Below, piece after piece: positions 4,501-59,440 of a stretch of DNA of 64,000 nt. The stretch spans positions 20,702,305-20,766,304 of the forward strand of contig NC_052488.1 in NCBI RefSeq assembly GCF_009730915.1, read 5' to 3'. The position numbers and the translations under genes are program-made. How positions within the stretch are numbered: position 1 is the stretch's first letter; each line of letters begins with the position of its first letter. The notes under the pieces were generated by a model. The model was not told where the DNA came from. It did no database searches and saw nothing but the letters and a program-made list of their open reading frames with translations. Source of the stretch: Dioscorea cayenensis subsp. rotundata. Taxonomy: Eukaryota > Streptophyta > Magnoliopsida > Dioscoreales > Dioscoreaceae.

Positions 4501-5150
4501 GCAGCGATTCATAGGCTGTAGGCAAAATAGCAGAGTTTGAAATATGTGGAAAATGGTTTCCGGGAAAATAAATCTATGATTCGGGTTTCTAGGATAAGGG
4601 TTCCGAAAGTGAAAATTAGGTCTTGGATTTTCAAGGAAAAAAGGTGTGGTTAATAAGCCTGGGTTGGGAGATGGGCTATGGGGTCTTGGATTAGTGTTGG
4701 GTTTAGGTACGTTAGGCGTAGAAGATTTGAATTGAGAGTTGGGTCTGGGTGTAGCTCATGGCCAGTGTGAGTAAAACGCAGTAAAATCAGGAGAAGACTA
4801 AGTAGAAGAGGGGGAAACTTGAGAAGATAAGAGGGCCTTATGACTTACGAGCATACTATGTAGATCAAAAAAGGACATGGGATCTTGGTGAGGGGAGGTG
4901 GGTAACTGCCACAGTAAAGGCATTAAATTCCGGGCCAAATTTGTTTAAAACAAAAGTAATTAAATCATCCTCAGTGTTGGGGTGGCCAATGCAGGCTGGT
5001 TCATTGGTTTTGCCTCGCATCTTGTGGAGATAATCAATGCAGGAGAGGCCACCTTTAACTGTACTTTGGTGAAAATGATGCTTTATGGGCCCTTGTCAAG
5101 CATAAAAAGGTGATTTTAACTTGGATCCCTTTGGGGAACTACTTGCTGTT
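1600..5150 (-). mobile_element. Ty1/copia LTR retrotransposon fossil (antisense, broken)
   Basis: On the minus strand the order from high to low coordinates is: a gag-like region (about 4.8-5.1 kb), an integrase-like stretch with pol-type residues (about 2.9-4.1 kb), reverse transcriptase with copia hallmarks (QLNVQNAFLH near 2.6 kb; ATITRPNISFTINHVS near 2.2 kb), and an RNase H-like end (KHIEIDYHFVCE near 1.8 kb). The gene order (integrase before reverse transcriptase) and these motifs identify the copia superfamily. It is heavily broken with many interruptions. No convincing pair of LTRs or a target duplication could be delimited, so both ends are approximate. It looks old relative to the other elements here. 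It lies in an intron of the decayed DWNN gene, in opposite orientation. Confidence 0.85.
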
Positions 5151-7974
5151 TTGTATCTCAATCAGCTCATCAAATCTTGTGTTTATATATACAATGACTA
5201 AGGGGTTCGCATAAATTGCTTAAAGTAAGCATCAGATTTGGAATTGTCTCTGTTTGGTATTGTGCATGAAGACACGCAATTGTTTCATGGGGTAGGTTAC
5301 ACTGACTGTGACATAAGGACAACAAAATGACACTGATGCACACACCTGCTGACAAACACATGCATTGTTGGATGATGGAATTATCAGGTTTCTGAATTGT
5401 TTTGTATTTTTTCAAATCATCAGACCATAGCATTTCAATGAGATTCTATATGTCCTCTATGTGTTGTCTAGAGTTTTTCCTCCAGTCCTAATCCTGCTCT
5501 ACATGTGTTTCATCTATTCCAAATAGGACCTATTTCATTGTGCTTATACTTCCCTGTGCCTTTCCGCCCCATGCCACACTTAGCTTTCTTTTAAGATTCA
5601 TTTCCAATGGCATCATGTGCATCTCATCATCATGTTTTCACTTGTACATCTTGAATTTAACTAATGCACTCTGCCTTGTAATCCCATGATTCTAACCTTT
5701 TTCAGCCTTTCTTAGAGCATAAATAAACACCATTAAGATTTTTTTTCAGAGGTTACAAATCTGTCAAATATATGCTTAATTCTTGAATTGTCTCATTGAC
5801 CCCAATTCGACATTTGTTACAACTTACAATTGTTGCAGTCAATCTAACGTGAGTTTGGATCCATAGATCAGGATGGTTTAATTTTGTTGTCTTTTCTGGA
5901 AACAACTGAACTGTTGTGGTTTTTTTTCCATGTGTGCTCGTGTTTGAGGATTGTGCTAACTAATGATTTTTTCAATTCTCAAACTGATCTTACGGGGGAC
6001 CAAACTTGTTTCATGTGTGGTTTACCAGACCATTTAATTAGAGATTACCCTGTAGCTTCTAATCCATATCCAATATTTCAGACAGGTAAGGAGATTACTA
6101 GGTACTTTCTAGAGGAAATCAGTAGGAAGAATTTCAAACTCCCTGGGTGATTCAAGTTTATTTGGTTGTGTCCATGCTGTGGCTTTTCACGAGATGCTGG
6201 ATATTCTCCATTCATGCCATCTTATGGACATCCATATTGGCTTGGGGCCTCATTCACTCATTTGAGACCTTATGGAATCCCTGCAACATGCCATAGGATT
6301 GTACTGTTTTCTCAGCCACACCTTTTAGGATTCCTTCATTTATACCATCTGGATATTCTGTCATGCCGTTATCCATGTAAATTGTTCTTCTCAGCCCATT
6401 TATTTCTGCATCACTCTTGCATAAATAAACCTGTTATCTGGTTGTTTAGTTAAAGTGTTTAATTAATATTTTTTTGCCGGTGGATTCATTAAGATGGGAT
6501 GCATTCCTTCTTCAATGATGACAGGAGCTGCACACCCTCTTACCCATGATGAAGCTGATGATCTTGAGGATCAAAAATAGAAGAGGTTAGTAGCATATGG
6601 AAACTGCTCAAGAATATTGATCTTGAGGTTCACCCTAGATTTGTGCCTGTAATAGCTGTCTATAGTGTGATCACTTTGCTTGCTCATCCATATTGGCAAC
6701 AAAATGGAACTTGTAGCATTTACATTGATGGTTCCCTTTTTTTATGGTTTATAGTTTAGTATGTACTTTTAACATAATTTTTGTAACCTCTTCATTTTTT
6801 TTCTTTTGTCTGTGAAGTGTTACTGGCAGTTCTAATTGGATTGGTGTACTTGGTTTGTTATTCCGATTTACTAAAATATTGAACTGCTGAAATACATTTA
6901 AGTTTATAATGATGCTCGATATAAGTTCTTGCTCACAATTCTTTTTAATTATCTGGGTGGAATTTAGGGAAGTTGACTATGAGGACATGCCCAAAGCACA
7001 TCATAACAGTGATACTGGAGGATCTCATGAAAGAAAGCTCAGACTAGATGAGGACACTGCTACAAGGCATGCTGACTATAACACAAATAGGCTACACAAG
7101 AAGTACTCTCAAGAATCGAGATAGATATATAAATGCCCCCTCGTATCATAGGCAGGGTATTCCCCCATATGATCAATTTCAGTCTATTGATCAGAAATAT
7201 TATAAGGGTTCGCATTTGACAGCAATGTGAAGAGATTAAAGGTTGCATTCTGAGAAATCATATTCTGAGGTACAACGGGTGTCTGAGAACTCTGACAAGC
7301 GCAGTAGAGAGAGGAAATGGCGCAGTTGCAAAAACCAATCTATGAAACGCACAAGAAAAAAAAACAACCTGGACATGATTGTAGCCAGAGAAGTCATCAT
7401 AGGAGTATGAAAGAATTGTCAGATGACTGGGAAAAATTTGTGATAATTAGTAAAAGGCATAGGCACCATTGCCATAAAAGCACAGGTTGCATTCTGGAAC
7501 CTGATTCTCCCACTGTTGGGGCCATGCCAGGGAGAAACAGTCAAGCTACACTTCTGGGAATCCCAAGCATAAATCAAATCAAATGGATGACTCATTCAAA
7601 GATGACAGGTGGGAGATGGTTGATGGCTTGGATGATGACTATTGGGGGAGGCATTATTATGGCAAACACAAGTTAATTTCCTAAAGCTTGCAAGCTTATT
7701 GCTGTTATAACTATTTACAGCCAGCTTTGTAGGAGTAGCACCTCATATATGTGGAACTACAGTGGCTACATCTTCACAGGTATATGTACATATTGAACCT
7801 CACCTTCCCTTTCAATAATTGCCAGTCTATCATGAGACACACAGGAAAAATCATCATGCAATGTACATTTTTAATCTGGTGTGGTATTGGGTTGATGAAA
7901 ACTATTATTTCATGTCGGCTTATACATGTCTAGGAAGTGTTATTGGGTTGAGAAAAATGGTTCTCTGTTTGTAG

Positions 7975-21185: not shown

Positions 21186-22550
21186 ATTAAAGACAGCTTT
21201 TCCAGCCATAAGAATGAGTCAACTCTTGCATCTTCTGGGCAGCTGGCATCCAAAAGTGGATAAGTTTAATGTTTGGCTTTCTATTTGACCATTTGCAGAA
21301 CTATGCACTTACAGCATGCAAACTTTTGCTGAAACAATTTTTTTTTCCATTCTTTTAGTGAGCATCTGCAGGATTGTGTGTATCAGTGCTATGCTCTATT
21401 ATGCATACCTGCCGAAAGTGTTTCCTGCCAGATTAATTCTGGGGAAGATGGGCAGTTGAGTTCTTGCACATCTAATTGTGAATCTCAACAATCATCTTCC
21501 TCATATTTTTTCTGCCAGAATTCAATATATATGCGGTGATATTTTTGCAAATGCTGATAAACTAGGATTGAATTGATCAGTTTCTTATTCTCACTTGGAA
21601 CTTTGTTTTGCGTTCATGACTTTTTAAGAGTTTCATGACATTGACATACTCTAGATTAGCATTTTCAGTATGTCTGGTATTGCAGTTAGACAAAGATATA
21701 AAATGTTTTGACAGCCCGATTTGCCAGCAGGTTGTATACATGCTTATAACATGGTTTTGTGTTGAAGAACTTTTGCATATTTGCAAAGCGTGCCCTGGGA
21801 TGTAATATTCTTTATGCAGAGCAATTGTTTTATTTATTCCAAAAAATTTCCATGGTGTTTTGTTTGACAATGGAAAATCAAGCATGGATCATTGGGTTTT
21901 CATCTTTTTGATTAGTGATATAGGTTTTTCTAGCCACAAGAATTGAGTCGGTGCTCAAAGCTTCTGGCATCCATATTTGTACTGATCAATCCAAAAGCGG
22001 ATAAGTTAAATATTTTTGTTGAGCTTTCAGTTTGACCATATCCAGAACTGCATCATGCAAACATATGCTGAAACAATTTGTTTTCCTTTATCTCAGTGAG
22101 CATCAGCAGGATTGTGTATTGGTGCTATGCTCTATAAAGCATACCTGCCCTGAGTGTTTACTTGCTACATTAATTATGCCGAAGATGAGCAGTTGAGTTC
22201 TGACATCTAATTGTGCATCTCAACAATCATCTTCCTCATGTTTTTTTTTGCAAGAATTCAGTATGTATGTAGTGATATTTCTGCCATGACCAGGATTGAA
22301 TTGATCAGTTTCTTTTTTGGTACTTGGAAGTTTGTTTTTCTTTGGATATCAGATTGCTTTATATCATTGCTTTCATAACTCTTAGAAGTTTCATGAGTAA
22401 AATGTTTGATGTTCTAATTTGCCAGCAGGTTGTATACATGCTTACACCATGCATGATGAAGCTGTAATTTTTCTTTTCGCAGATCAATTGTTATATTTAT
22501 CCTAAGAAATTTATCGGAATTTTTGATTGAAAATGGAAAATCAAACATGG
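21186..22550. repeat. Degenerate ~700-bp tandem duplication downstream of RPS3
   Basis: Segments 21,186-21,890 and 21,904-22,550 share many ordered blocks: GATAAGTTTAATGTTTGGCT-like, GCTGAAACAATTTGTTTT-like, GAGCATCTGCAGGATTGTGT-like, TCTCAACAATCATCTTCCTC, GGATTGAATTGATCAGTTTC, TTTGCCAGCAGGTTGTATAC and a final GGAAAATCAAGCATGG-like end. The copies differ by substitutions and indels. No conserved ORF or transposon ends are visible. The rest of 20,843-22,976 is non-coding, between the tail-to-tail RPS3 and PsbX genes. Confidence 0.88.
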
Positions 22551-25904: not shown

Positions 25905-26400
25905 CTTTATTTCTAAATGAATTCAAGCAATTGCTTTAATGTATCCCAATTGGTCTCAAAATTATAATAAAATCTTTAAATTTAAATTCAAAAATTCTGT
26001 TTTTAAAATATTTAAAATAATAGATTTAATTTGTCCTAATTGGTCTCAAAATTATAATAAAAATCTTCAAATTTAAACTTAAAATTTTATTTTTAAATGA
26101 ATTCAAACAATTGCTTTAATGTATCCTAATTGGTCTCAAAATTATAATAAAAATCTTCGAATTTAAACTCAAAACTCTATTTTTAAATGAATTCAAACAA
26201 TTGTTTTAAAGCTCTCAAAATTATAATAAAATCTTTGCATTTAAATTCAAAACTCTATTTCTAAATGACTTCAAACAATAGCTTTAATCTATCCTAATTG
26301 GTTTCAAAATTATAATAAAAATTTTTGAATTTAAACTCAAAACAATAGCTTTGATCTATCCTAATTGGTTTCAAAATTATAATAAAAATCTTGAAAACCA
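25905..26400. repeat. Short AT-rich tandem repeats
   Basis: Five to six degenerate units of about 80-125 bp, each with ATTCAAACAATTGCTTTAAT-like, CCTAATTGGTCTCAAAATTA and TAATAAAAATCTT blocks. They lie between the TFIIE beta 5' end and tRNA-Tyr. No coding potential. The rest of 25,288-25,904 shows nothing recognisable. Confidence 0.85.
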
Positions 26401-39718: not shown

Positions 39719-42405
39719 TTACATAAATTCATCAACTAAATCATCATTCTTTGTATGATCCCTCTGTTGCAGCACCAAGACTGATCCATCTAACATGAAA
39801 TCAGAGGAAGCAAGCAAGTCTCCGATCACACCCAACTCCGGACACTCCGCCCAATCACTCATTCCGACCGTCAATGGCGAAGGCCCTTCCCTCCCTTTCC
39901 CCACTATGAACAACGAGTACGACCCCACCATTGAACTCAACTCCGCCACCATCTGAGCTCCATCTTCCACGTACTTCTCCATGTACGTTGCCACCCCCGG
40001 CTCCACAAACCTAATGCATGCATTTCAGTTCACGTATCATCATCTTCAAGATAAAAATTTTAATATATAACTATATATATATATATATATATATACCTCT
40101 CTTGGAATTTTTGCAGGAATGTTTCATCCTCATCTCGCCGGAAATCTTGTTCGGAGATGACCATTTGGACTTCATCTTGATTACCAGGACTTGAACTACT
40201 ACTTTCTTTGGTAATTTCAGCATCCTCTGTTTTCTTTGTCTTCATTGAAGTAAGTAAAAACCGAACCACCGTGAGGCTGATGCAGGGATGGGTTGCAAGC
40301 CGGCCACCAAAAGCTAGTGCCTCCCGGTCATCGCCGCCAACAAAGAAGAGAACAACAACGTTTGTTACAGCATTGTTTGCTCGATTGGCTCCGCCGAGAC
40401 CCGCGGTCGACGAGGATGCCGACGGTGCAGGGAGAGTGGCGTAGCACCTTAACGTTGAGTCCTTGGATACCCTTCCTTCCCGGCTTGCATCTTCCCATCG
40501 ATGCGTTGGTGCTTGTGGAACGGCATGACAATGATGGCAGCTCTCATGTCTTCAGCAGCGTTGCAGACGTCCTCGTGCATGCTGGTGAAGCCAGAGACGG
40601 TGGTGACTAGCCGGACTTTGAGGCCGGTTTCACGCCAGAAGGCGTCGGTGGCGTGGTGAATTCTCCGTGAATCATCTCCACCGTACTCCCAGTCATCCTC
40701 GTTGCTCTCGCTGGAGTCATCTTCTTCATGGTAAAGCATGGTGGTGGTTACTCTCTGGGTGAGCTCAACAAGGTGCATCATGAAGGCAGTGATGGAGGAG
40801 CCGAAGGCCGTGCCGCTTGACATTTCGATGAGGCTGAGCATAGTCGGCATCTCTCTTGGTCCGTGGATGCATGTCAGCATGCGCAGCTCCGTCTTCAGCT
40901 GGTGGTGCTGCAACCCCATCGCTCTGTATGTCATGGCTCTTCTTCGGAAACTAACAATGGCCGCCGCCACCGGTCCGGCTAGCAGTGTGTTGAGCACCAC
41001 CGTGACTAGAAGAGCCGTGTAGGCCGTGTAATTCCACATCTACATCACTAACCTCATGTAAATATATATATATACTTGCATATATATATATTTTATATAT
41101 AAACTTAAATTATAATTACCCCAATCTTTCTAGCGACGTTAAGGATGATCAGTTGGACGTGACCCTTGACATTGAGCAAGAAGCCTAAGACGAGACCTTC
41201 ATGAGTTGGAATGTCTAAAAGGCCGGTGACCATTACAGTGCCGGCCACCTTGGCAACAGTGCTAAGGATAACAATGGCGGCCACGGCGGTGGCGAGCTTG
41301 GCATCAGCCAAGGCGAGGAGATTCGTATGGAACCCTGCATAAGCGAAGTAGATGGGTAATATGAAGTTGTTCACCGGATAAGTCAACCAGTCTACCATTG
41401 TCCTCGCTGCACCTCCTTCCCGGGGAAAGAACAAACCCAAGATGAAACATGCCATCATGTTATTGTAACCCATCATCTCCGTCATTGAGGACACGCCTAG
41501 CACCACAGCGAGGATGCTAACAGCGTGCCAATTCCCGACGTGGCGACGACGAAGGAAACGCTTGTTCATGTTGGTGACGAACAAACGCACGACGCCGATC
41601 ACAGTGGCTAACATGCAGATCATCACTGCTGTTCCGGCCAACTTGTGGTGGAGGGCCAGTTTGTGGGTGGCCTCACTGGCCGTGAATGACGCAAGTGAGA
41701 GAACGAAGAGGCAGGCCATGTCGTTGACCAGCGCGGAGGAGATAGCAAGCCTGCCGACTTCCGAGTGAGCGAGTTTGAGGTCGGCGGCGATGCGGATGAC
41801 GACGGGAGTGGCCGTGTTGGCGAAGAGGAGAGCAATGGTGCAGCCGAACAAAATGGAGTTTCCGGAAGAGTTGAGGTTTGTATGGAGGAAAGAGGTTAAG
41901 ACGACAGCGAGGACGATGGAGGAAACACAACCACCAGCGGCCACAACCATTGCACGGTCGGCGGTGCGCCAGAGATACTCAACGTCCATTTCAATGCCGA
42001 TGAGGAACATGAGGACCATCCGGCCGATCATCATGCCGGCGCCCATTAGGTGACTCTTCTCCGGGTCGAACACCTTGTTGCGCCATTGTGGGATGTGGCC
42101 GAGCACCGATGGGCCGACGATGATTCCGGCCTGAACGTGCATGGAGATTTAATTTACGTAGAATTAAACTAATCATTGAAGAGAAAAATTAATGGAGGAG
42201 GTTTGGGGAGGAGATAAGAGCTTACAAGGATTTGGGCAATGGCGCTGGGTTGGCCGAGGCGTTGAAGAAAGAGGTGGAGGACGTGGGAGATGGAAATGAC
42301 GATGGCCATGCGCATGATGAGGTGGAGGAGATCACCGTACTCTGTTCCATCATCGCTGCACTGGAGTCCTTGATTGAACAGTGCTTGTTGTTGGGTCTCA
42401 GACAT
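39719..42405 (-). CDS. CHX-type cation/H+ antiporter, with two +1 shifts in exon 3
   Basis: CHX proteins (CPA2 family) exchange K+ or other cations for protons across endomembranes or the plasma membrane. Four exons: 42226-42405, 41120-42130, 40097-41039, 39719-40010. The first two encode the membrane domain: AIAQIL-AGIIVGPSVLG, FLIGIEMDVEYLW, FANTATPVVIRI, SSALVNDMACLF (the Asn-Asp pair near residues 196-197 is the conserved transport site), MMACFILGLFFPREG and LNVKGHVQLIILN. Exon 3 starts the cytosolic half (RMLTCIHGPREMPTML, IIVMPFHKHQRIDGKMQ). Its frame is lost twice: an extra base at about 40469 (after GKEG) and another at about 40398 (after VGILVDRG); between and after them, LNVKVLRHSPC and NAVTNVVVLFFVGGDDREAL continue the family pattern, and exon 4 ends normally. 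As read, translation stops at 40449 after ~593 residues. Without the two bases it would be 807, the family norm. It is a pseudogene, a truncated allele or an assembly error. Confidence 0.9.
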
Positions 42406-43061: not shown

Positions 43062-46000
43062 TTTTTCTTTTTTTTTTGAAAAAGTGGATGAACCACATTC
43101 ATAAATAAGAAAAGAGTCAACAAAAAACAAAAGGAGTCATAGGCTCTACAAAAAGCAACCAACCACCATGAGTGGAAAGAAGAAAAGAAAAAGCCCAACA
43201 GGGAGGGTAAACAAAAGGACCTGAAGGAGGAGGAAATCCTTCAAGACAACAACGCAGGAAGGACTAGATCTCGCCCGGGGAGTTTGGTCTCGAAGGCGGG
43301 GCCGACTGCACCTCGTCAATGGGGCCCAGGAACTCGAGGCTTCTCTTAATCTTCGACAAAGGATCTTCGAGCTTAGCCCTTTTTGGCTCAAGCGATGCAT
43401 TGAACCAAGAAATTAACATTCGATCAATTTTCAAAATAATGGATAAAGACGCGAGACAATTGGAATTAAAGATGCTGCGTTCCTTTCAAGCCAAATATTC
43501 CAATTAATGGCTCGCACGAGCAAATCCCAAAAAGGGAGTAAGGGCTTTGGTATCTTTCTCCTCCAATCCCCCCAAAGGTCCTTAAGGGACTTGGGAGGTT
43601 GACAAACACCAAAAAGTTGGTCAAAATAATTCCAGATATGCAAAGCAAAAGGGCACTGGAGGAGGAGATGATCGGCGGTTTCAACCTCCGCATGACATAA
43701 AACACAAGTAATCGATCGAAGGAGATTACACTTGCGCATAGCTAAATTTTCCAAGGTCAAGATTTTATTGTTTCAAGCTAACCAATTGAATAGATTAATC
43801 TTGCTTGGGCAAGCACTCTTCAAAATGATGGGAGTTTTATGGCAACGCAAGCCTCCATCGACCAGGAAAATGTAGAAAGAATTCACAGTAAAAATGCCAT
43901 TTGCCGTAAGAATCCAAGATTTTTCATCATTTTCAGAAGAGATACGCGCTGCGGTGTTGTTGATAAGGCTAATCCAGTCTTGGTGATCACACGAGGAAGT
44001 CACCTGCCTTCTGCTCATGAAATCCATAATCGAGTCTTCCTTCCTAGGGGCAAACTGATAAAGGTGAGGCCAGATGTCAGCTGGGGCACACCCCTCAATC
44101 CAGCTATCCAACTAAAACAGTGTGGTTGCCCCATTATGGATCTGATGGGAGAGATTTTTCCTAGAGGCCGGAAGGGAATGCAGAATACCATTCCAAAAAA
44201 AAGATCGCATTTTTCCATGCTTGTGGAACAGGTTCCACATAGGGAAATTTCTGTAATAATTTACGCGGAGAATGTCCATACCATACCAGTGTGCACCTAA
44301 AACAATCTTCCACCACCATTTACCAAGAAGAGCAATATTAAAGGTTTGAAGATTAAGGATACCTCAACCCCCTTGGTCTCTAGGACGGCACAGACGTGAC
44401 CAAGAGACCAATCTGATTTTACATTGATGGGAGTCAGGGCCCGACTAAATAAAATCTCTACGAATCTTATCAATGCTCTTAATGACCCAAGCAGGAAGCC
44501 TGAAGATCGACATCCAATAAGTAGGGATGGGCGAAAGAACAGAGTGTAACAAGGTGAGTCTTCCCCCCAAGGAAAGAAGTTTAGATTTCCAAGAAGCTAG
44601 TCTTGACCGAATTTTGTTGATGAGGGTATCCCAATCTTGTCTTCAAGGTCTACCCCCAGAAATCGGAATCCCAAGGTATGTAATCGGGAGGGTACCCGAG
44701 GAACAGTGAAGTGTTCTAGCCAGAGCGTTGTGGGGTAAACAGTTTTTCTGGGCAGTATAAAAACAAGTTTTAGTAGTGTTAACCTTAAGACCGGATAAAC
44801 CCTCGAAGATGTAAAGGATAAGCTTGATGATATGAAGGTCTTCACCTCCCCCATTAGTTAAGATGAGAAGATCATCAGCAAAATGCAGATTACATCTCCT
44901 GGTTCCAGTGTCCCCAAGAGCCACCCCATGCAGAATACCCGAGAGTAACGCATAATTAAACATGGTGCTAAGGACATCAATCACCAGGACAAAGAGGAGG
45001 GGGGAGAGGGGATCTCCTTGCCTTAAACATCGGCAATATCTAACATACCCACTTTGGCAACCATTAATGAGAAATTTAGCTTTGGTAGAAGTGAGAATAG
45101 AGCTAATCCATCTTATCCATTTGTCACTAAAACCCCTAGCTTGTAGGAGCTCCAGGAGGAACTCCCAGTCCACCGTATCAAAGGCTTTAGAAAAGTCAAC
45201 TTTTAGAATTAAACCCGGAAGCCTAAGCTTTTGCATGTAATAAATGAGCTCATTCACAGTAACGATGTTATCAGTGATGCACCTCCCTTTAATGAACGCC
45301 GACTGAGACTCATCAACCAGGGAATTAATCTTGGATCTCAATCTATTACCTAGAATCTTTAGAAATGATCTTAAGCGAGGAGTTGATCAAGCTAATGGGG
45401 CGGTAATGCGAAGGATTATCAGGGCTTTGAGTTTTGGGGATAAGGGCGATGTTAGCCCAATTGATTTTTTCTAAGTTGGCTCTCCCCCAGTAGAAGTCAT
45501 CACAAAGTTTGAAGATGTCATTCTTGATGATATCCCAATATTTCTGGAAGAAAAAGTTCGGGAGGCCATCCGGTCCAGGGGCTTTATCACCGTTTAGCTC
45601 AAAAACAGCCCTTCAAATTTCATCATGATTAAAATGAGTGTCAAGAGAGGAAAGGTCATGATGAAATTTATGTCCTAAGAGATGAGACCAATCAATTTTG
45701 AAGCGGAAATTCTGGGTAGTGCCACAAAGATTATGATAGAAGGTTGTGAAGGAATCACCAATACCTTCAGTATCACAGACTCTGTTGTTATTTAGTGTAA
45801 TCCCAGGGATAAAATTTCGGTTCCGCCGACCATTAGCAATTGAGTGAAAAAAACTTGTGTTTCCATCCCCCTCTTGTAGCCAGGTCACCCTAGCTCGTTG
45901 CTTACAATAAATCTCTTCAAGCTTAAGGATATGAAGCAAGTCAGAACGCAATGCAGTGTTTTTGGTCTGCTCCTCCTCAAAGAGGGGACGAGTTTCTTGT

Positions 46001-47680
46001 TGGCTATCCAAGAGAGCAATCTCGTGCAATAAAGTAAGCTTCTTCAATTTAATTGATCCAAATTCCGTTTTTGCCCAAGCCCTAAGCTAACTTCTGATGT
46101 GAGTTATCTTCTTGGATAGAATGAAAGCCCCACATCCATGGAAATGGGAAGAGCTCCACCAGTCCCTGATGTGATCCAAAAAACAATCCGATTCACACCA
46201 ATCCCTTTCAAAGCGAAATGGACGCTGAATCAGGAAGTGATCTCCAGATTCAAGTCTGATAGGGACATGGTCAAACCCCAATCTAGGAAGGCAATGTTGA
46301 GTGGTTTTAGGGAAAAGTGAGATCCAATCGAGCTTGACAAGGAATCGATCAAGTTTTATCCAAATCGGATTGGCTTGACCATTGGTCCAAGTAAAACGTT
46401 TCCCAAAAGAAGGAGGTTCCACTAAGTGAAGGTCACTAATGAGCAATTGTGCCTGTCTTATATCTTCCAAGTTTGGGCACCCGTTAGATTTATCGTTGTG
46501 GGAGAAGATGGAGTTAAAATCCCCACAAATGACCCAGGGGACACCCCTCCCCGGGAAGCAATTTCTAATTTCATTCCAAAAGTCAGGCTTTAAGTGGCGA
46601 GAATTAGGTCCGTAGACAGTAGTACAAACCCAAATGATGTCATTTGATTTATTTCTGAATTCAACCGAGAGACAGTATAGACCCTGGAAAATCAAGTGAC
46701 CCTCACGCAAGTTACCATTCCAACCAATGATCATTCCCCCTACAGAACCCAGTGCAGGGGTAAAAATGAATTGATCAAGTCGGGAACCTCCAACTGACCT
46801 CCAGGTGGAAGGGTCAATAGCACTAAGTTTGGATTCTTGAATACAACAAATATCGGCATAATGAATTTGGAAAAAGTCTCTAACAAGGAAGCGCTTGGAG
46901 GGACTTCCTAAGCCTCTAACGTTCCAGTTTATAATATTCATGGAAAAACTAGTTGGAACCTGAAGCGAAACCTAGGTTTGAGGTTCCCGCTTCTAAGTTG
47001 GAAGATGACAGTTTAGTAGACTCAAGCATGCGTATATGCAATAGACATTCATCTTTATGCTTCAAGGATTCAAATGAAATACCACAAGCATTGCAATAAT
47101 TTAAAAGTTGCAAATCATTCCAATCATTTAAAAGAAGGGGGTCAGAGTTAGTACCTTCCGGAGTCGTGTTTACTACCCCCTTCTTCTTGGTTGATCTGGG
47201 TGGTTGTGGTAGAAAGCCAGCCTCCTCGGTCCATCTTGAAGACGGCTTCTTTCTCCGTTCGCTTCTTCTAGTACCCTGTGAAGGATCCTCAGTCTGTCCG
47301 GATATAAGAAGTCTATTTACTTTCTCCTCAAAATCTGATTTCAGAAATCTTCCAATCCCTGACTATCCGTACTGTCCCCTTCATGTCCTGACCCCTCAGA
47401 CATTAGAGGGGTAGGGTCATGAGGATTAACCTCAGCAAGGTTTCCCTCACTCCAAGTCTCGTGATTTTCCAGTTGGGAAGACTCATCGTTCATCTGTGAC
47501 TGAGCCGAGATGTCTTTAGAAAATTTAGCAGGCACAAGAGTCCAGAAACCATGGAGAAATACCCAACTAAAATTAGGTGGGAGAGGAACAGATGGTGGGT
47601 GAGCTGGATTACAATAAGGATCGGGTTCCTCACTAATGGGTTGAGCAGTGGGATTGAATAAAAGTAACAAAATAAATTTG
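43062..47680 (-). mobile_element. L1-type LINE, near full ORF2, degenerate, ORF1 partial
   Basis: On the minus strand: an ORF1-like acidic/proline-rich end (47,341-47,670); then ORF2 starting MNIINWNVRGLGSPSKRF at 46,941. The apurinic endonuclease is open through 46,087 (CIQESKL, VYGPNSRH, WVICGDFNSIF, DHVPI). A linker (45,613-46,047, RVTWLQEGDGNTSFFHSIA) and the reverse transcriptase follow (SAFIKGRCITDNIV, LKVDFSKAFDTVDW, LRQGDPLSPLLFVLVIDVLS, catalytic HFADDLLIL near 44,861-44,894). The zf-RVT end is at 43,431-43,760 (MTLENLAMRK, CVLCHAEVETADHLLLQCPF). At least four breaks (stops or shifts at roughly 46.08, 45.6, 45.35 and 44.6 kb) make it inactive. The T-run at 43,062-43,077 on the plus strand is its poly(A) tail. 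The 5' end looks truncated and no target duplication was found. Confidence 0.92.
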
Positions 47681-49578: not shown

Positions 49579-51141
49579 AACTGATTGTGAGAGAGATTAA
49601 TTCAAGAGAAGTAGAAGAGAAAGAGAGAATGATAAAAAACATGGATGAACAAAGAGAAGAGAAAGATAAAGAGTTTGATGCTTGTTCGGTGACAGCAAAG
49701 TTAATACAGGTCATTCTTCATTGTTGCCTACGTTCCCAATGTTCTTCTAGTTCTAAGAGATTATTATTATTATTATTTTTTTTTAAAACAATGCATTGGC
49801 CTGTAGTTGTATTATTTTATTTTGATGTTTTGTTATTGGTTTGATTAGATAATGAGGCATTGCTTGCCATTCTATTCTGCACTATCTTAGTATTGAAGGA
49901 AAAAAAAAATCTTTAAGCATATTTCCAATGTTTTTTTTTTGTTGTCTTTTTTGAGAATGTCCTAATGGTCTATTTTACCTTGGAAATTTTATGTATGCCC
50001 ACAAAACAACTAAAATTTTGTTTTTAAGCACTAAAATCAATAAAAACATTGGTATTATAAAAAATCAGTTTATATATCTTAAAATTAAATTTAACATTAT
50101 GATAAAAAAAAAATCATAAATTCTCTTCTTGTAAAATTATGGAAAAAATCGTATCAGTATAGCCTTAAAAATTTTCTAGGTTTGACATTTTGCACTCTCC
50201 GGTTACTATGTATATATCCACAAAAAAAAAAAATTTTTACACACTCAGATTAATAATAAATATTAATATTATAAAAAAGCATTTTAAAAATTAAATTTAG
50301 ATGTACAAAAAAATTATGGAAAAAATAATGTATTCTCTCTTTTTAAAATTATGAAAAAGTCATATGCTATAGCCTCAAATTATTGTGTGTATCCACAAAA
50401 CAACTCAAATATTGTTTTTAATTTGCACACTCAAATTAATAAAAAATATTAATATTATAAAAAAGCAAGTTATACATCTAAAATTAAATTTAACTTATGA
50501 AAGAGTTATAAAAAAATCATGTCTTCTCTTTTTGTAAAGTTATGAAAAACTCATGTACTATAGTCTTTAATAAAATCCTAGTTATGATCTTTTGGGCTCT
50601 CAATTTATTTTGTATGTCCACAAAAAAAAAAACTAAAAAAAAAGTAGGTTAAACATCTTAAAATTAAATTTAACTGTGCTAAAAAAATTATGAAAAAAAT
50701 CATGTTTTTCTCTTCTTGTAAGATTATGAAAAAAAACCTATACTATACCCTTTAGAAATCTCTATAATTTTAATCTTTTTCGCTCTAAAATGATTATGTA
50801 AATTCACAAAACAACAAAAACTCTGTTTTCACACATTAGAATTAATAAAAACATAAATATTATAAACTGTACTAAAGAATTATATATATATATAAAATCA
50901 TGTCTTCAAAAATATAAATAAATAAAATTATGAAAAAGTCATGTACTATAGCCTTTAAAAATGTGTAGTTTTGATTTTTTGGGATCTCAATTTATTATGT
51001 AAATCCTAAATTAACTAAAAAAAAGGCAAGTTATACATCTTAAAATTAAATCTAACTGTACTAAAATTACAAAAAAAAAAAATCATATTTTCTCTTCTTG
51101 TAAAATCATGAAAAAGTCGTGTACTATAACCTTTAAAAATA

Positions 51142-54100
51142 GGGAAAATTACTATTTACCCCCTACACTGTTTAAAATTTCCCAAACAACCCCTGCAAGT
51201 TATGAATACCACGAACAACCCTTCCTTTATCATTTTACTTCCTTTTTACCCCTTGTAGGTCACTTGGATTGGGTCCATGTTGTGAAATTCCATCATTGCC
51301 CTTTAAAAATGGTGGGAAAAAAACGTCCAATCACATCATGTCTAACATTTTTTTACATTTCTTTTTTTATTTTTCCGAAAACAAACTTTTGGAAGACTTT
51401 TTATCCTTGTCCCGTCCCCTCGCTTTCCGCTTTAAAATGATCATGCTTTTTGTTTAAACATAAATGTTTCCGCTTTAAAATTATCAAGTTTCGCTTTAAA
51501 TATATCCGGGTTTCAGCTTAAAATGCAATGATTTTTAGTAGGTATTCTGGATTCTACGAGCGTATCCGTCCCCACCCTCAAGGCCACTCTCGACGATTTA
51601 GTAGGCCTTCCTTACTCGTTAGATCATTTTGAAGTTTTTGTCATTGCATGCTCGGACAACGCTTTTTGAGGGCGCTAATCATTTAAAAAAACTCATTTCA
51701 CTACCACGAGTGCGGACACAATCGTAGATCTTGCAAAAAAACTATCGCCAACTAAGCATAAATGATAACTTATATTCGTTACATATGTTTTGCCACAAAC
51801 TATCGTGATATTATTAGTACATTTTGCTCGTTATTTATGAAAAAATCGTTTTCATAAACAAACCCAAATTTAAAATGAAACAATGATATTTAAACATAAA
51901 CATAGTTGTATAAGTTAATTATTGATTAATTATCCCGCTTTTTGCTTAAAACTTATGTTTTTTTCTCAACTATTATTATCATGTCTTTGTTTCGCTTTAA
52001 AATTATACGCTTTTTTTGTTTAAGCTTAAATGTTTCCGCTTTAAATTTATCAAGTCTCGCTTTAAAAATGTTATGTCTCTGCTTAAATATATCCAGCTTT
52101 CAGCTTTAAACAGAAATGATTTTTAGTAGGGTATTCGGATTCTACGAGCGTATCCGTCCCACCCAAAGGCCACTCCCGACGATTTAGTAGGCCTTCCTTA
52201 CTCGTTAGATCATTTTGAAGTTTTTGTCATTGCATGCCGGACAACGTTTTGAAGGCGCTAATCATTTAAAAAAACTCATTTCACTACCACGAGTGCGGGC
52301 ACAATCGTAGATCTGCAAAGAAACTATCGCCAACTAAGCATAAATGATAACTTATATTCGTTACATATGTTTGCCACAAACTATCGCGATATTATTAGAC
52401 ATTTTGCTCGTTATTTATGAAAATCGCTTTTCATAAACAAACCCAAATTTAAAAATGAAACAATGATATTTAAACATAAACATAGTTGTATAAGTTAATT
52501 ATTGATTAATTATCCCGCTTTTTGCTTAAAAACTTATGTTTTTTTCTCAACTATTATTATCATGTCTTTGTTTCCGCTTTAAAATTATACGCTTTTTGTT
52601 TAAGCTTAAATGTTTCCGCTTTAAATTTATCAAGTCTCGCTTAAAAATGTTATGCTCTGCTTTAAAATATATCCAGCTCAGCTTAAAATGTAAATGATTT
52701 TAGTAGGTATTCGGATTCTACGAGCGTATCCGTCTCCACCCTAAAAGGGCACCCTCGACGATTTAGTAGGTCTTCCTTACTCGTTAGATCATTTTTGAAG
52801 TTTTGTCATTGCATGTCGGACAACGCTTTTGAAGGCGCTAATCATTTAAAAAAACTCATTTCACTACCACGAAATGCGGACACAATCGTAGATCTTGCAA
52901 AAAACTATCGCTAACTAAGCATAAATGATAACTTATATTCGTTACATATGTTTTTCCACAAACTATCGTGATATTATTAGTACATTTTGCTCAGTTATTT
53001 ATGAAAATCGCTTTTTCATAAACAAACCCAAATTTAAAATGAAACAATGATATTTTAAACATAAACATAGTTGTATAAGTTAATTATTGATTAATTATCC
53101 CGCTTTTGCTTAAAACTTATGTTTTTTTCTCAACTATTATTGTCAGTGTCTTTGTTTCCGTTTAAAAATTATACGCTGTTTAAGCTTAAATGTTTCCGCT
53201 TTAAATTTATCAAGTCTCTGTTTAAAATGTTATGTCTCTGCTTTAAATATATCCGCTTTCAGCTTTAAACAGAAATGATTTTAGTAGGTGATTCGGATTC
53301 TCACGAGCGTATCCGTCCCACCTCAAGGCCACCCTCGACGATTTAGTAGGGCCTTCCTTACTCGTTAGATCATTTTCGAAGTTTTGTCATTGCATGTCGG
53401 ACAACGTTTTGAAGGCGCTAATCATTTAAAAAACTCATTTCACTACCACGAGTGCGGACACAATCGTAGATCTTGCAAATAAACTATCGCCAACTAATCA
53501 TAAATGATAACTTATATTCGTTACATATGTTTTTCCACAAACTATCGCTATTATTAGTACATTTTGCTCGTTATTTATGAAAAATCGTTTTCATAAACAA
53601 ACCCAAATTTAAAAATGAAACAATGATATTTAAACATAAACATAGTTGTATAAGTTAATTATTGATTAATTATCCCAGTTTTTGCTTAAAACTTATGTTT
53701 TTTCTCAACTATTATTGTCATGTCCCTTGTTTCGTTTAAAAATTATACAGCTTTTTGTTTAAGCTTAAATGTTTCCGCTTTAAATTTATCAAGTCTCTGC
53801 TTTAAAAATGTTATGTCTCGCTTTAAATATATCCAGCTTTCAGCTTTAAACGAAATGATTTTAGTAGGTATTCGGATTCTACGAGCGTATCCGGTCCCAC
53901 CCAAAGGGCACCTCGACGATTTAGTAGGTCTTCCTTACTCGTTAGATCATTTTCGAAGTTTTGTCATCGCATGTCGGACAACGCTTTTGAAGGCGCTTAA
54001 TCATTTAAAAAAACTCATTTCACTACCACGAGTGCGGACACAATCGTAGATCTTTGCGAAAAACTATCGCCAACTAAGCATAAATGATAACTTATATTCG

Positions 54101-56218
54101 TTACATATGTTTTTCCACAAACTATCGTGATATTATTGTACATTTTGCTCGTTATTTATGAAAATCGTTTTCATAAACAAACCCAAATTTAAAAATCGAA
54201 ACAATGATATTTAAACATAAACATAGTTGTATAAGTTAATTATTGATTAATTATCCCGCTTTTTGCTTAAAACTTATGTTTTTTTCTCAACTATTATTGT
54301 CATGTCTTTGTTTCCGTTTAAAAATTATACGCTTTTTGTTTAAGCTTAAATGTTTCCGCTTTAAATTTATCAAGTCTCGCTTTTAAAATGTTATGTCTCG
54401 TTTAAATATATCCGCTTCGATTTAAACGAAATGATTTTTAGTAGGTATTCGGATTCTCACGAGCGTGATCCAGTCCCCACCTCGAGGCCACCCTCGACGA
54501 TTTAGTAGGCCTTCCTTACTCGTTAGATCATTTTGAAGTTTTGTCATTGCATGTCGGACAACGTTTTGAAGGCGCTAATCATTTAAAAAACTCATTTCAC
54601 TACCACGAGTGCGGACACAATCGTAGATCTTGCAAATAAACTATCGCCAACTAATCATAAATGATAACTTATATTCGTTACATATGTTTTCCACAAACTA
54701 TCGCATATTATTGTACATTTTGCTCGTTATTTATGAAAATCGTTTTCATAAACAAACCCAAATTTAAAATGAAACAATGATATTTAAACATAAACATAGT
54801 TGTATAAGTTAATTATTGATTAATTATCCCAGTTTTTGCTTAAAACTTATGTTTTTTCTCAACTATTATTGTCATGTCCTTGTTTCCGTTTAAAATTATA
54901 CAGTTTTTTGTTTAAGCTTAAATGTTTCCGTTTAAATTTATCAAGTCTCTGTTTAAAATGTTATGTCTCTGTTTAAATATATCCAGTTTCAGTTTAAACA
55001 GAAATGATTTTAGTAGGTATTCGGATTCTACGAGCGTATCCGTCCCAGCCCTCAAGGCCACTGACGATTTAGTAGGCCTTCCTTACTCGTTAGATCATTT
55101 TGAAGTTTTGTCGTTGCATCGCCGGACAGCGTTTTTGAAGGCATGTCGTTTAAAAACTCGTTTCACTACTGCGAGTGCGGGCACAATCGTGAATCTTGCA
55201 AAAAGAACTATCGCCAACTAAGTCATAAATGATAACTTATATTAGTTCACATATGTTTCTGCCACAAACTATCGCATATTATTATGCGTTTTCGCTCGTT
55301 ATTTATGAAAAATCGTTTTCATAAACAAACGCATAATTTAAAAAAGAAAAGATGAAAATTTAAATAGAAGCGTCAGTAGTTAAAGCGAAACATTGATATT
55401 TTAAACATAAACTTTGAAAACTTAAATAGAACAATCGATAGTTAAACGAGAAATAACAATATTTACATTCAAAAATTAAAGCACGGCCGTCCCTGGACAA
55501 ATGTGGATCGAGTCGGACATCACAATGAAATTGTAAAACAATCAAAAATCTCCTTTCACACAATATTATTGCTTTTCGATTATGTACACAAAGCGAAAAT
55601 GAAAAACAATCAAAAACTCTTGCGAAAAATCTTCCTACAAACTACAAGATCGTCGATAATCACACCATGAAAGCAGAAAAATTCTCTTTCTAATAGAATA
55701 CTTTAGAAATCAAACTAAAAAGAAAGCTACGGAATATCGAAACAAAAGGAAAGCTGCACGACATCTTCGATGGCATCCACCTCGTGTCAGATACTGTGGG
55801 CGCAAACTAATGAAATGTCAAAGAGTTGAGTGGGAGTTCTTCTCGAGGCGGTGGTCAATCCTACGAGAAGATGTCCGGTAATGTGACAACTTTGAAAAAG
55901 GGAAAAAGTTGAAGAGATGAAGAGATGAAAAGAAAAAACAGAAACCGCATAATGGTGTTCTTGGGGGATTAACCAAGAGCGGATTCTCTTAAAGAGAAAA
56001 ATTATTGCGAGCAAAAGGCGTTATGGTCAAATCACGTCTCACTTGTCACAACTTCCATGCAAGGGATAATTTCGTCCAAAAATTTAAAACTAACTCCATT
56101 AAATGTTTGAGGGTTTCAAATTCATTAGTATTTAGAAAGGAGGGTTTTAGTGATTCCCAAATTAATGAGGGTGTTTTTGGAAATATTAGAAACTTAGAGT
56201 TATTTTGGCAATTTTCAC
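51142..56218. mobile_element. Non-autonomous Mutator-like element (5,077 bp) with perfect 9-bp target duplication
   Basis: The ends are GGGAAAATTACTATTTACCC (left) and, as reverse complement of the right end, GTGAAAATTGCCAAAATAAC; further inward both have TTTCC(C)AAA and CCC-rich blocks, so they form degenerate inverted repeats. The 9-bp word TTAAAAATA lies directly outside both ends (51133-51141 and 56219-56227), the hallmark of Mutator superfamily insertion. Removing the element and one copy of the word restores an uninterrupted ~190-bp monomer, so the empty site is visible in the neighbouring repeats. No transposase-like ORF exists; most of the interior is a ~580-bp tandem array (51.42-55.35 kb). 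The right 870 bp (55,350-56,218) is unique DNA of unknown origin, perhaps captured. Confidence 0.85.
51420..55345. repeat. Seven-copy ~580-bp tandem array inside the MULE
   Basis: The landmark TAGTAGGTATTCGGATTCTA recurs near 51535, 52125, 52700, 53281, 53861, 54438 and 55010 (spacing 573-590 bp). Each unit also has CTCGTTAGATCATTTT, CTCATTTCACTACCACGA, AACTATCGCCAACTAAGCAT, AACATAGTTGTATAAGTTAA and TTTAAGCTTAAATGTTTCCG. Copies differ mostly by one-base insertions or deletions, often at C/G beside T or A runs, rather than by substitutions. Only short ORFs occur, none conserved between units. Confidence 0.93.
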
Positions 56219-57395
56219 TTAAAAATATCTAGTTTTAATATTTTCAGCTCTCAAATTATTATGCATATCTACAAAACAACTAAAAATTTGTTTTTGCATA
56301 CTAAAATTAATAAAAGTATTAATATTATAAAAAATTAAGTGATACATTTCAAAATTAAATTTAATAGAACTAAAAAATTATGAAAAAGTCATATGCTATA
56401 GCCTCAAATTATTGTGTGTATCCACAAAACAACTCAAATATTGTTTTTAATTTGCACACTCAAATTAATAAAAAATATTAATATTATAAAAAAGCAAGTT
56501 ATACATCTAAAATTAAATTTAACTTATGAAAGAGTTATAAAAAAAATCATGTCTTCTCTTTTTGTAAAATTATGAAAAACTCATGTACTATAGTCTTTAA
56601 TAAAATCCTAGTTATGATCTTTTGGGCTCTCAATTTATTTTTGTATGTCCACAAAACTAAAAGTAGGTTAAACATCTTAAAATTAAATTTAACTGTGCTA
56701 AAAATTATGAAAAAAAATCATGTTTTCTCTTCTTGTAAGATTATGAAAAAAAGCTATACTATACCCTTTAGAAATCTATATAATTTTAATCTTTTTTCGC
56801 TCTAAAATGATTATGTAAATTCACAAAACAACAAAAACTCTGTTTTCACACATTAGAATTAATAAAAACATAAATATTATAAACTGTACTAAAGAATTAT
56901 ATATATATAAAATCATGTCTTCAAAAATATAAATAAATAAAATTATGAAAAAGTCATGTACTATAGCCTTTAAAAATGTGTAGTTTTGATTTTTTGGGAT
57001 CTCAATTTATTATATAAATCCATAAATTAACTAAAAAAAAAAGGCAAGTTATACATCTTAAAATTAAACCTAGTTGTACTAAAAATTACAAATCATATTT
57101 TTCTTCTTGTAAAAATCATGAAAAAGTCGTGTACTATAACCTTTAGAAATATCTAGTTTTAATCTTTTCAGCTCTCAAATTATTATGCATATCTATAAAA
57201 CAACTAAAAATTTGTTTTTGCATACTAAAATTAATAAAAGTATTAATACTATAAAAAATTAAGTGATACATTTCAAAATTAAATTTAATAGAACTAGAAA
57301 AATTATGAAAAAGTCATCATATTCACATCTTGTAAAATTATGAAAAAATATCATGTAGCCTTTAAAAATCTCTAGTTTTGATCTTTTGGGCTCTC

Positions 57396-59440
57396 ACGGC
57401 CCTGATTTCATTTACCCGTTGACAGCCCATCAAGGCCCATTATGTTATCGGATTCAACCTCACAAAACCCGATAACTCAGCCTTATAGGATTCGGAGTAT
57501 TATTCTTATATTTCTCAACTAATAACCGTATGTCACGTGACTACCTACCGACCTACGCTCCCGCGGAAGTTCCCACTAGGTACTGTGTTTTTTGATTTTT
57601 GAATCAAGTTAATGTTGGCTAGGAGGCGTGGAGCTATATTAGCCGTTGGATCTGAGTGCTTTTTTAGACATCGTTTTACAGAAACACCCTCGACTTCTGC
57701 CTAAATTATCTAAAACCCCCTAAATTGAAATCCCTCTCTAATTTGTCTCCTATTCCTCCCCAAATCCCTAATTTCCCATTCTCGCTCGTTTCGAAACCCT
57801 AGAACCCCACCATCTCTTGCTTTTCGGTCTCGATCCCGATCCGCTCCCTCTTCTCTCGATCGCTCCCGCTGTTAGGGTTTGCAGGTATTCGTTAATCGAA
57901 ACTCTTGTTGTTCTAGTTTCATTTGTGCTGTTATTTTGCCCTTCTTTTTTTCCTAAATTATGGGATGCTTTCGATTCTCCGTTGATTTAGGGTTTCTTTA
58001 TTATCTAGATTATGCCATCGAGATGATTTGATTGTAGCAGAGAGCGTGGTTGATTTCTACTGTTTGTTATCTTCATGCATTGATTCCTGTCTTGCATTTT
58101 AATGTTGTGGGTTTTGATTGATGCGGAGTTGGTGTGTACTGGTAATTAGTTGTAGTGTAATTTCTTTCTTTCTCATATTTTTGAGGTTTGTTAGGAAGAT
58201 TAGGGAGTGAAATTTAGTCGTGTTGTTAAGGAGGTGGTGTTGGTTGAATCAGTTGATCATGATATTTTGGTTGAGGTGCTTTCGCGTGGTTCATTTTTGG
58301 TATGCCTGTGCCTCTGTTAAGTAAGTATCATACTTGTTGTTGAAGAAATAGGAATCATTGATCAATAGGACAGGCAGCACAATGAGTGGGTATCTTTGTG
58401 AGTTGCTGGACTATATTATGCATTGTTGGAGAATCATTTCTTTCATGAGCTCAGGGCGAAGGAAATTTCAGAAGGAACTATAAATCAATTCATCCAATCC
58501 ATGTAAAGTAACATATGACTGAGATAATAAGATAAACCCTACCAAGGATGCAGGGAATGACATTCTCCAGTTTCACCAGATCTTAGTGTTCAGTGGTATT
58601 GATAATAGACTCATGATGGGAAAAAACAGAAGCTTTTCTGTAGTTTTGTGGAAAAATCACATAGAAAGAAGAGACTATTAGATAGAAAATATACCTGATG
58701 GAATTATTGAAGTCATTTTGCTTATTTGTTCTGTGGAGATAGTAGGTGTATTTATAATGATTCAAGTGTTGAAATCCTATTTCGATTTCTAGTCATTATA
58801 AGCATATATAAATTTATAGTAGCTTATTTGTTTTGTGGAGATAATTATATAGGCTACGCTGGGCTTTTCTTTTTTCATTTTTTTTTCCTTTATTTTTTTG
58901 GGCGGAGGATTAAGTTTGGTATCCTATTAGGCTATTTCTATCTTCAGTTACTATAAACATATGCATGATTCACATGAAATCCTTACTTGAACAAATTTCC
59001 AAGTAAAATGTAACTGGGGCTATGCTATGCTTATTTAATCCTTTGGGACTTTGAGACTTTGAGCATGTTCTCCCTTGATAATGTCTTGCTTTGTGGCTTT
59101 ATGGTTTTGTAGCTGTGAAGTGTGTTCAGAAGAATCAACTATAGGAATTACCTGTTTATTGTTTTTCTTACATTGGATTCATTGGTGTTTATGGTCTTGG
59201 CATGATTTCAACAATATTGAGATGCCCCTATGATTTCTGTTATTATTTTTGGATTTGTACTTGATTTTAAATGCTTTGTCCATGACTAAAGCTCCAGCCG
59301 CTGTTGTCTACTTTGTGAGGTGGTGGACTATGTTGGTTCTTATTGTGTAATTCCTCAAGCTTGATTGAATCTGATAATATCATTTACTAACTTGGAAATG
59401 AATTTCAATGGGTTATATTTGTTGGTATCTAGAATTAAAA
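57396..59440 (+). promoter_or_regulatory. Promoter, non-coding first exon and first intron of the CID/ataxin-2 gene
   Basis: A palindromic G-box TCACGTGA lies at 57533-57540. A C/T-rich leader follows from about 57,680, with a telo-box AAACCCTA at 57794-57801, and a donor at GCAG|GTATTC (exon end 57884). The first intron runs to an acceptor near 59,431 (TATCTAG), eight bases before the ATG at 59441. The transcription start is inferred from composition only. The intron itself shows no other feature. Confidence 0.6.

Follow-up and report, generated by a model that had tools for sequence, protein, structure and literature searches.

Two questions are raised by this locus, i.e. whether the tandem array found within the window (the whole stretch of DNA analyzed, 64,000 nucleotides) is part of a mobile element, and where the array was made. 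The reading reached is that of a Mutator-type element which, as it spreads in the genome, takes along a satellite-like array that grows and shrinks. The original prediction was of a 5-kb Mutator-like element in the window. This is confirmed, and the element is refined to positions 51142–56218 (5,077 bp), edged on both sides by TTAAAAATA. The two copies of this 9-bp target site duplication are at 51133–51141 (left) and 56219–56227 (right). On the plus strand the element displays a left end of 282 bp that opens with GGGAAAATTACTATTTACCCC (51142–51423), the tandem array (51424–55397), a non-repeated tail of ~620 bp without a recognised protein domain (55398–56018) and a right end of 200 bp that closes with ..TTATTTTGGCAATTTTCAC (56019–56218). 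The terminal words of the element family are GGGAAAATTACTATTTACCCC and TTATTTTGGCAATTTCCAC. The openings of the two ends are unlike, GGG.. at one element end and GTG.. at the other.

The predicted seven-unit, ~580-bp array is borne out as 6.88 units of ~578 bp each, the last one incomplete. The units, all on the plus strand, start at positions 51424, 51990, 52571, 53155, 53730, 54311 and 54883. Unit 1 (51424–51989), the left edge unit, is without one ~21-bp sub-repeat, and unit 7 (54883–55397), the right edge unit, is incomplete and the most diverged. The mean difference among units 1–6 is 2.5% in gap-free columns; unit 7 differs from the other window units by 8.5–13%. Every unit starts with a run of GTTTAAA/GCTTTAAA-type cores, which in unit 1 is at 51428–51523 on the plus strand with cores ~21 bp apart. 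The cores are present at 7.9 per kb in the element, a density raised by the tandem units, vs 0.2 per kb elsewhere in the window. Ungapped autocorrelation shows no period above the set threshold. Conservation is 0.960 for core bases, 0.959 for the remainder of the unit and 0.929 for the spacers, i.e. the cores do not stand out from the remainder. Neither result gives a sign of selection on the motif. A special meaning of the palindrome found in each unit is ruled out, since perfect palindromes are common: with arms of 10, a loop of at most 8 and overlapping positions counted separately, 50 kb of the window holds 362 positions. No match to a 24-base word taken from the unit was found in the viral genome collection or in the bacterial/archaeal one.

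The ends and the 9-bp duplication had been taken to define the element. The pair is indeed present, however duplication plus a short end match is weak as sole evidence because 15 of the 20,166 identical 9-mer pairs that lie 1–12 kb apart in the window, the element's own included, also display inverted ends matching at 8 or more of 9 positions. A search of the window with the end pattern gives 4 matches vs 5.3 expected, and both element ends are among the 4. Over a greater length, the outer ~112 bp of the left end matches the inverted right end in degenerate form (73 of 113 columns). The end-match score is reached by none of 1000 dinucleotide shuffles at 120 bp, by 1 of 1000 at 90 bp and by 8 of 1000 at 200 bp. 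Inverted ends in eight other copies have 58–74 identical positions of 85–114 columns, counted without shuffles. Terminal inverted repeats, long or degenerate, are a trait of Mutator-like elements (MULEs) and are found here.

The observation itself is settled, because there is an uninterrupted copy of the target repeat and because the ends recur in the window's own 584-Mb genome. When the element flanks are joined they align without a break to positions 57040–57271 on the plus strand (221 of 241 identical). This is a paralogous empty site, a neighbouring copy of the target repeat that is unbroken across the junction; it holds a single counterpart of the 9-bp target word, differing at one base. 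A third, partial copy of the flanking repeat has 97% identity over 175 bp at an offset of 924 bp. From the partial third copy and the empty site, the 1-kb repeats on either side of the element are a tandem target repeat and not LTRs. Ungapped autocorrelation of the joined flanks is flat, with 931 hardly above 381. The insertion was also predicted to be recent on account of the identical target word. Nine identical A/T bases are no proof of this. Stronger grounds come from the two target repeats that the element separates, which differ by ~1.2% over most of their length; the figure omits the outer part, the first 200 of 993 alignment columns, which differ much more and hold 33 substitutions. 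Units 1–6 give no clear date, as the uncorrected test against the target repeats reaches p < 0.05 for 3 of their 15 pairs.

The ends recur in the genome, with 40 scored left-end matches at 90–100% among 2,021 first-look candidates (the window's own included), and the possibility that they are confined to this locus falls. In all 21 further copies that were read the left end comes first and unit sequence next, and the right end is present in 20 of these. Of the 21 copies with both ends, 14 have a 9-bp duplication that is exact and sits where the edges were predicted (zero shift), four have a perfect one (9–11 bp) shifted by one base, and three have none; copy L029 was read by eye. A target site duplication of 8–11 bp, mostly 9, is a MULE trait and is seen in this family, and the other insertions with 9-bp duplications that had been anticipated are found. 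Each of the 22 copies read (window included) holds unit sequence, and 20 of them hold more than one unit, thus the array travels with the element. By these same counts an origin of the array at this site is ruled out, as it is by the divergence of unit 7 (8.5–13% from the others), whereas the split target repeats differ by 1.2% over most of their length. In the accessible parts of the open-licence literature, searched by element kind, no description of this ~578-bp-unit family was found.

Unit number ranges from 0.83 to about 14 across the copies read, mostly in whole-unit steps; the original prediction had looked for such differences. The highest value is from L029 (14.24 as entered in the outside-array comparison, with summed units of ~14.1), and this copy is outside all other unit statistics, i.e. 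unit counts, nearest-neighbour and core conservation. In 17 of 21 copies (window and L009–L028) the remainder is 0.78–0.89 unit. This places the change in whole units, between array edges that are fixed. L009 (4.84 units) and L015 (0.85 units) are only 1.4% apart outside the array, in a comparison from which 4 of the 22 copies (L014, L018, L023 and L028) were dropped for incomplete parts. Interior units have their nearest neighbour within their own copy in 40.5% of cases vs 5.5% in shuffles (largest of 500, 16.2%), and the unit difference is 2.7% within copies and 4.2% between copies. By separation, the within-copy difference is 2.96% for neighbours, 2.5% for units two apart and 2.8% for units three apart, and in L026 it reaches 5.6%, more than copies differ between each other. 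With this flat relation and the case of L026, simple neighbour-to-neighbour duplication is not seen. The predicted expansion by unequal exchange agrees with the whole-unit steps and the within-copy likeness; the process itself is an interpretation.

The fine differences among window units are a separate matter, and it is rather probable that they are mainly assembly or base-calling errors, which is compatible with a MULE family. Units 1–6 show 329 indel events (289 of one base) vs 246 substitutions, units 4 and 6 differ by 2 substitutions and 21 indel events, and among 140 single-base indels outside homopolymers, 44 fall on the central base of a CAG or CTG. In addition, the GCTTTAAA form of the GTTTAAA core is absent from 9 of 21 copies but common in some, the window and L012 among them, and three other window repeats have only 0.16–0.35 indel events per substitution. 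However the indel excess extends beyond the arrays (across copies, 0.77–0.81 for the ends and the tail and 1.25 for the units), two overlapping target-repeat comparisons reach 1.06 and 2.33 indel events per substitution, and the gap-free-column substitutions (mean 2.5%) remain. Caution is due with small indels in arrays of this kind, which assembly noise may produce.

The element is very probably one copy of a multi-copy, non-autonomous MULE family with a variable internal array, where the superfamily is assigned from duplication length and end structure and from nothing else. The MULE domain (PF10551) is absent from the 11 scanned of the 12 open stretches of at least 60 aa that overlap this copy, the other one being 63 aa long. 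A coding relic is ruled out, the sole Pfam match being a sub-threshold DUF5722 (E = 0.027). The genome holds at least 150 MULE-domain matches (150 scored of 3,312 candidates), and of those scored, identified by the domain, none could be linked as a transposase to the ends of the element. Another reading is a transposon from a different superfamily that also makes a 9-bp duplication, or a derivative so distant from Mutator that it would not be placed there. It would fit with the lack of a transposase in the element, the degenerate end match (73/113) and the unlike ends (GGG.. vs GTG..), but this is improbable in a genome so rich in MULE domains (at least 150 matches). Other plant superfamilies are known for duplications of other lengths. 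MULEs are described as making 8–11 bp duplications, and VANDAL elements as having 9 bp together with degenerate or missing inverted repeats (PMC6446971).

The least probable reading, and a very unlikely one, is that the 578-bp unit is a general genomic satellite whose transposon-like edges are a chance match or a one-off satellite capture: the kilobase-scale array is homogenised in a satellite-like manner, the target word is A/T only with 15 window pairs (own included) passing the same end test, and 7 of the 39 unit clusters scored among 785 candidates are without a scored left end and lie outside the copies read, but the other 32 coincide with scored left ends (listings compared by hand), the longest listed cluster, of 13 rows, sits inside an element, the same non-array left end starts 21 of 21 further copies with the same right end in 20, perfect duplications are in 18 of 21 copies, and there is the empty site at 57040–57271.

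For the MULE family the following mechanism may be proposed. The ends are degenerate inverted repeats of ~112 bp, and insertion yields a 9-bp A/T-rich duplication. A transposase made elsewhere would recognise the ends in trans and move the whole body including the array, which would thus be inherited cargo of the element. Within copies the array would gain and lose whole units, as the whole-unit steps and within-copy likeness suggest, and the simplest route may be unequal exchange or slippage in gap repair following excision. The ~21-bp sub-repeat run in each unit multiplies a short motif to dozens per element, and may be a platform to which a protein of the transposon or of the host binds, comparable to VANC target repeats. 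It is conceivable, though doubtful, that the array is a working part, i.e. a dosage-variable platform with motifs about two helical turns apart for a VANC-like anti-silencing or transposase protein, where copies of unlike unit number would differ in methylation and mobility. If so, the transposon would tune its own activity via satellite-style copy-number change. The family is a natural series of about 1 to 14 internal units at separate insertions in one genome. It allows one to ask how arrays of a satellite-like kind arise within transposons and how they change there, if unit number affects transposition or silencing, and if VANC-type target repeats extend beyond the known motifs.

Several known systems display related features, according to the accessible parts of the sources cited. 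SaTar MULEs of guayule and rice are also non-autonomous and repeat-associated, however they target microsatellites and line up as arrays, whereas here the array is inside one element (PMC5907723). Among animal MULE relatives, Phantom, Rehavkus and Muta1 carry a mini-satellite, which follows the transposase gene or precedes the 3′ end (PMC6446971). In Muta1 there are nine sub-terminal repeats of 12 bp, and its non-autonomous derivatives vary in internal sequence (PMC5225508); its short repeats are within its ends, unlike the kilobase array in the body of the present element. Tnat1 and Tnat2 of Arabidopsis are transposable elements with central tandem repeats, but of 60- or 240-bp units, as compared by description alone (PMC10794571).

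The VANDAL elements, which are Arabidopsis MULEs, offer further points of likeness. Neither YAGTATTAY, the VANC21 motif, nor AGTTGTMC, the VANC6 motif, occurs in the element (0 and 0), which excludes just those two because motifs vary between related families. Unlike VANDAL elements, this copy is without a recognised transposase or VANC gene, and the array of 578-bp units makes up most of the element. The VANDAL combination of degenerate inverted ends and a 9-bp duplication (PMC6446971) is found here, and in VANDAL elements as well, as far as the accessible texts describe them, non-coding tandem repeats multiply a short motif, with units gained or lost between related copies (PMC5735166; PMC10398659). 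By this resemblance of features, as distinct from membership, the element may work like VANDAL elements.

The element at positions 51142–56218 of the window is bounded by two copies of the target word TTAAAAATA (51133–51141 and 56219–56227), which enclose 5,077 bp. Self-comparison of the window places a tandem array of 6.88 units of ~578 bp at positions 51424–55397, in agreement with the seven units of ~580 bp originally described. The array lies between a left end (51142–51423) and a non-repeated tail (55398–56018) that leads into the right end (56019–56218). The outer ~112 bp of both ends are degenerate inverted repeats (73/113 columns), and their local alignment score was equalled in 0 of 1000 shuffles with 120 bp, 1 of 1000 with 90 bp and 8 of 1000 with 200 bp.

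The ends and 9-bp duplication named in the original prediction are present, but as sole evidence they are weak. There are 20,166 pairs of identical 9-mers 1–12 kb apart in the window, and 15 of these, the element's included, display inverted ends at eight or more of nine positions. Since the window is A/T-rich and 15 pairs pass this end test, the duplicated word and the first nine end bases would not have been enough alone. Better evidence for an insertion is a paralogous empty site at positions 57040–57271. The joined flanks and this sequence are alike at 221 of 241 positions, the alignment runs across the junction, and the site holds a single target word with one base different.

The element splits an A/T-rich local tandem repeat that has diverged sub-repeats (49984–51141 and 56228–57396). 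A partial third copy begins 924 bp past the second, with 97% identity over 175 bp. Positions 50640–51021 and 56659–57039 of this target repeat display 373 matches and three substitutions. Over the 660 gap-free positions from alignment column 200 onward, eight differences (1.2%) separate the split copies; this figure omits the first 200 of 993 columns, where 33 substitutions sit. The 1.2% difference sets a rough ceiling on the age of the insertion if the copies have not been homogenised by gene conversion, which is possible because the omitted columns hold those 33 substitutions. Within the array, units 1–6 (numbered left to right) have a mean difference of 2.5%, and unit 7 is 8.5–13% different from the others. 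Compared with the target repeats, only 3 of 15 pairs among units 1–6 are more different at p<0.05, uncorrected.

A left-end search of the genome (584 Mb, 2,249 contigs) gave 40 scored matches at 90%–100% identity, including the window's own; these come from 2,021 first-look candidates, which are not verified copies. Twenty-one of the other 39 were read, 20 in 10-kb stretches and one later (L029). The left end is followed by unit sequence in all 21, and the right end is reached in 20 (L018 runs into N). Part of the tail is missing in L014 and L023. The L028 tail is interrupted by ~2.7 kb of other DNA (oriented positions ~2627–5371) whose longest open stretch is 117 aa.

Duplications at other insertions had also been predicted, and were found. 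Both ends are present in 21 copies, counting the window's and leaving out L018. In 14 of these an exact 9-bp duplication lies immediately at the predicted edges, and four (L011, L015, L017 and L026) have a perfect 9–11 bp duplication after a one-base shift of one edge, three of them in a setting of simple repeats. No duplication was seen in L021, L023 and L028. The L029 duplication was judged by eye. The duplicated words are A/T only in 15 of 18 cases, with one G or C in L009, L024 and L029.

Unit number differs among insertions, as anticipated, from 0.83 to 8.82 unit equivalents in the window copy and L009–L028 to ~14.1 units (summed) in L029. L015 and L021 have one incomplete unit each. In 17 of 21 copies (window and L009–L028) the remainder is 0.78–0.89 unit, the exceptions being L018, L019, L023 and L024; therefore the array has constant edges and changes by gaining or losing whole units. 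When one unit was searched against the genome, 39 of 785 candidates were scored and yielded 204 matches, with clusters of at most 13 rows among the matches listed. By hand comparison, 32 of the 39 scored unit clusters coincide with scored left ends.

The 21 copies contain 97 units, 57 of them interior. The nearest neighbour of an interior unit is in its own copy in 40.5% of cases versus 5.5% with shuffled labels (maximum of 500 shuffles, 16.2%), and interior units differ by 2.7% within a copy versus 4.2% between copies (179 of 716 alignment columns). The arrays are thus partly homogenised within copies. Two observations count against simple duplication of neighbouring units: unit difference does not rise with separation (2.96%, 2.5% and 2.8% at one, two and three units apart), and the within-copy difference in L026 is 5.6%, above the between-copy level. 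Outside the array, the mean difference is 3.5% (0.8%–7.1%) among 18 of 22 copies, those whose non-array parts are complete; L009 (4.84 units) and L015 (0.85) are 1.4% different there. L015 and L021, each ~1.58 kb long, are 0.8% apart outside the array. For 10 of the 17 other copies compared, L015 ranks first or second in closeness. These single-unit copies may be either the ancestral form or a collapsed array.

GTTTAAA-type cores open each unit at spacings of mostly 18–23 bp; six of the seven window units contain one more tightly spaced pair. Tandem Repeats Finder reports periods of 20–22 at the core runs; ungapped autocorrelation gave no signal over its threshold. Cores number 7.9 per kb in the element, a density raised by the tandem units, versus 0.2 per kb elsewhere in the window. 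The word GCTTTAAA occurs four times in one unit versus 0.10 in shuffles, where the commonest 8-mer averages 2.9. Conservation is no higher in the cores (0.960) than in the remaining unit sequence (0.959), so a function of the cores is no more than suggested.

Window units 1–6 show 329 indel events (289 single-base) versus 246 substitutions, and units 4 and 6 differ by 21 indel events and two substitutions. Outside homopolymers there are 140 single-base indels, 44 of which affect the central base of a CAG or CTG triplet. The form GCTTTAAA repeatedly takes the place of GTTTAAA in some loci and is missing from 9 of 21 copies. Indel events per substitution are 0.16–0.35 in three other window repeats, 1.06 and 2.33 in two overlapping target-repeat comparisons and, across the family, 0.77–0.81 in ends and tail and 1.25 in units. 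We think that this fine variation is mostly assembly error, some of it systematic; the findings on unit number, ends and duplications do not depend on it.

Elsewhere in the window, a CHX (plant cation/H+ antiporter) gene (40063–42148, minus strand) has domains in different frames, attributable to an intron in one place and to either a pseudogene or assembly errors in another. A LINE-like retrotransposon (43431–46971, minus strand) has endonuclease, reverse transcriptase and zf-RVT in separate open stretches. The small nucleolar RNA snoR135 is present twice (21365–21508 and 22103–22243; 108.7 and 67 bits) within a longer duplication, and a tandem array of ~90-bp units (25908–26392) is substitution-diverged with few indels.

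MULE domains are numerous in the genome (at least 150 matches, from the scored part of 3,312 candidates), and thus a transposase source is likely present, but none could be tied to the family's ends. In VANDALs, tandem repeats of a short motif lie in non-coding parts, change fast between copies and are bound by the anti-silencing protein VANC (PMC5735166, PMC10398659, PMC6446971). The element shares with VANDALs the 9-bp duplication, degenerate ends and non-coding tandem repeats of a short motif (PMC5735166, PMC10398659, PMC6446971). Both known VANC motifs are missing from the element. Transposons with internal repeats are already known from Tnat1/Tnat2, Phantom, Rehavkus and Muta1 (PMC10794571, PMC5225508, PMC6446971). 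What differs here is a kilobase array that makes up most of the element, with a ~17-fold range of unit number among the copies read.
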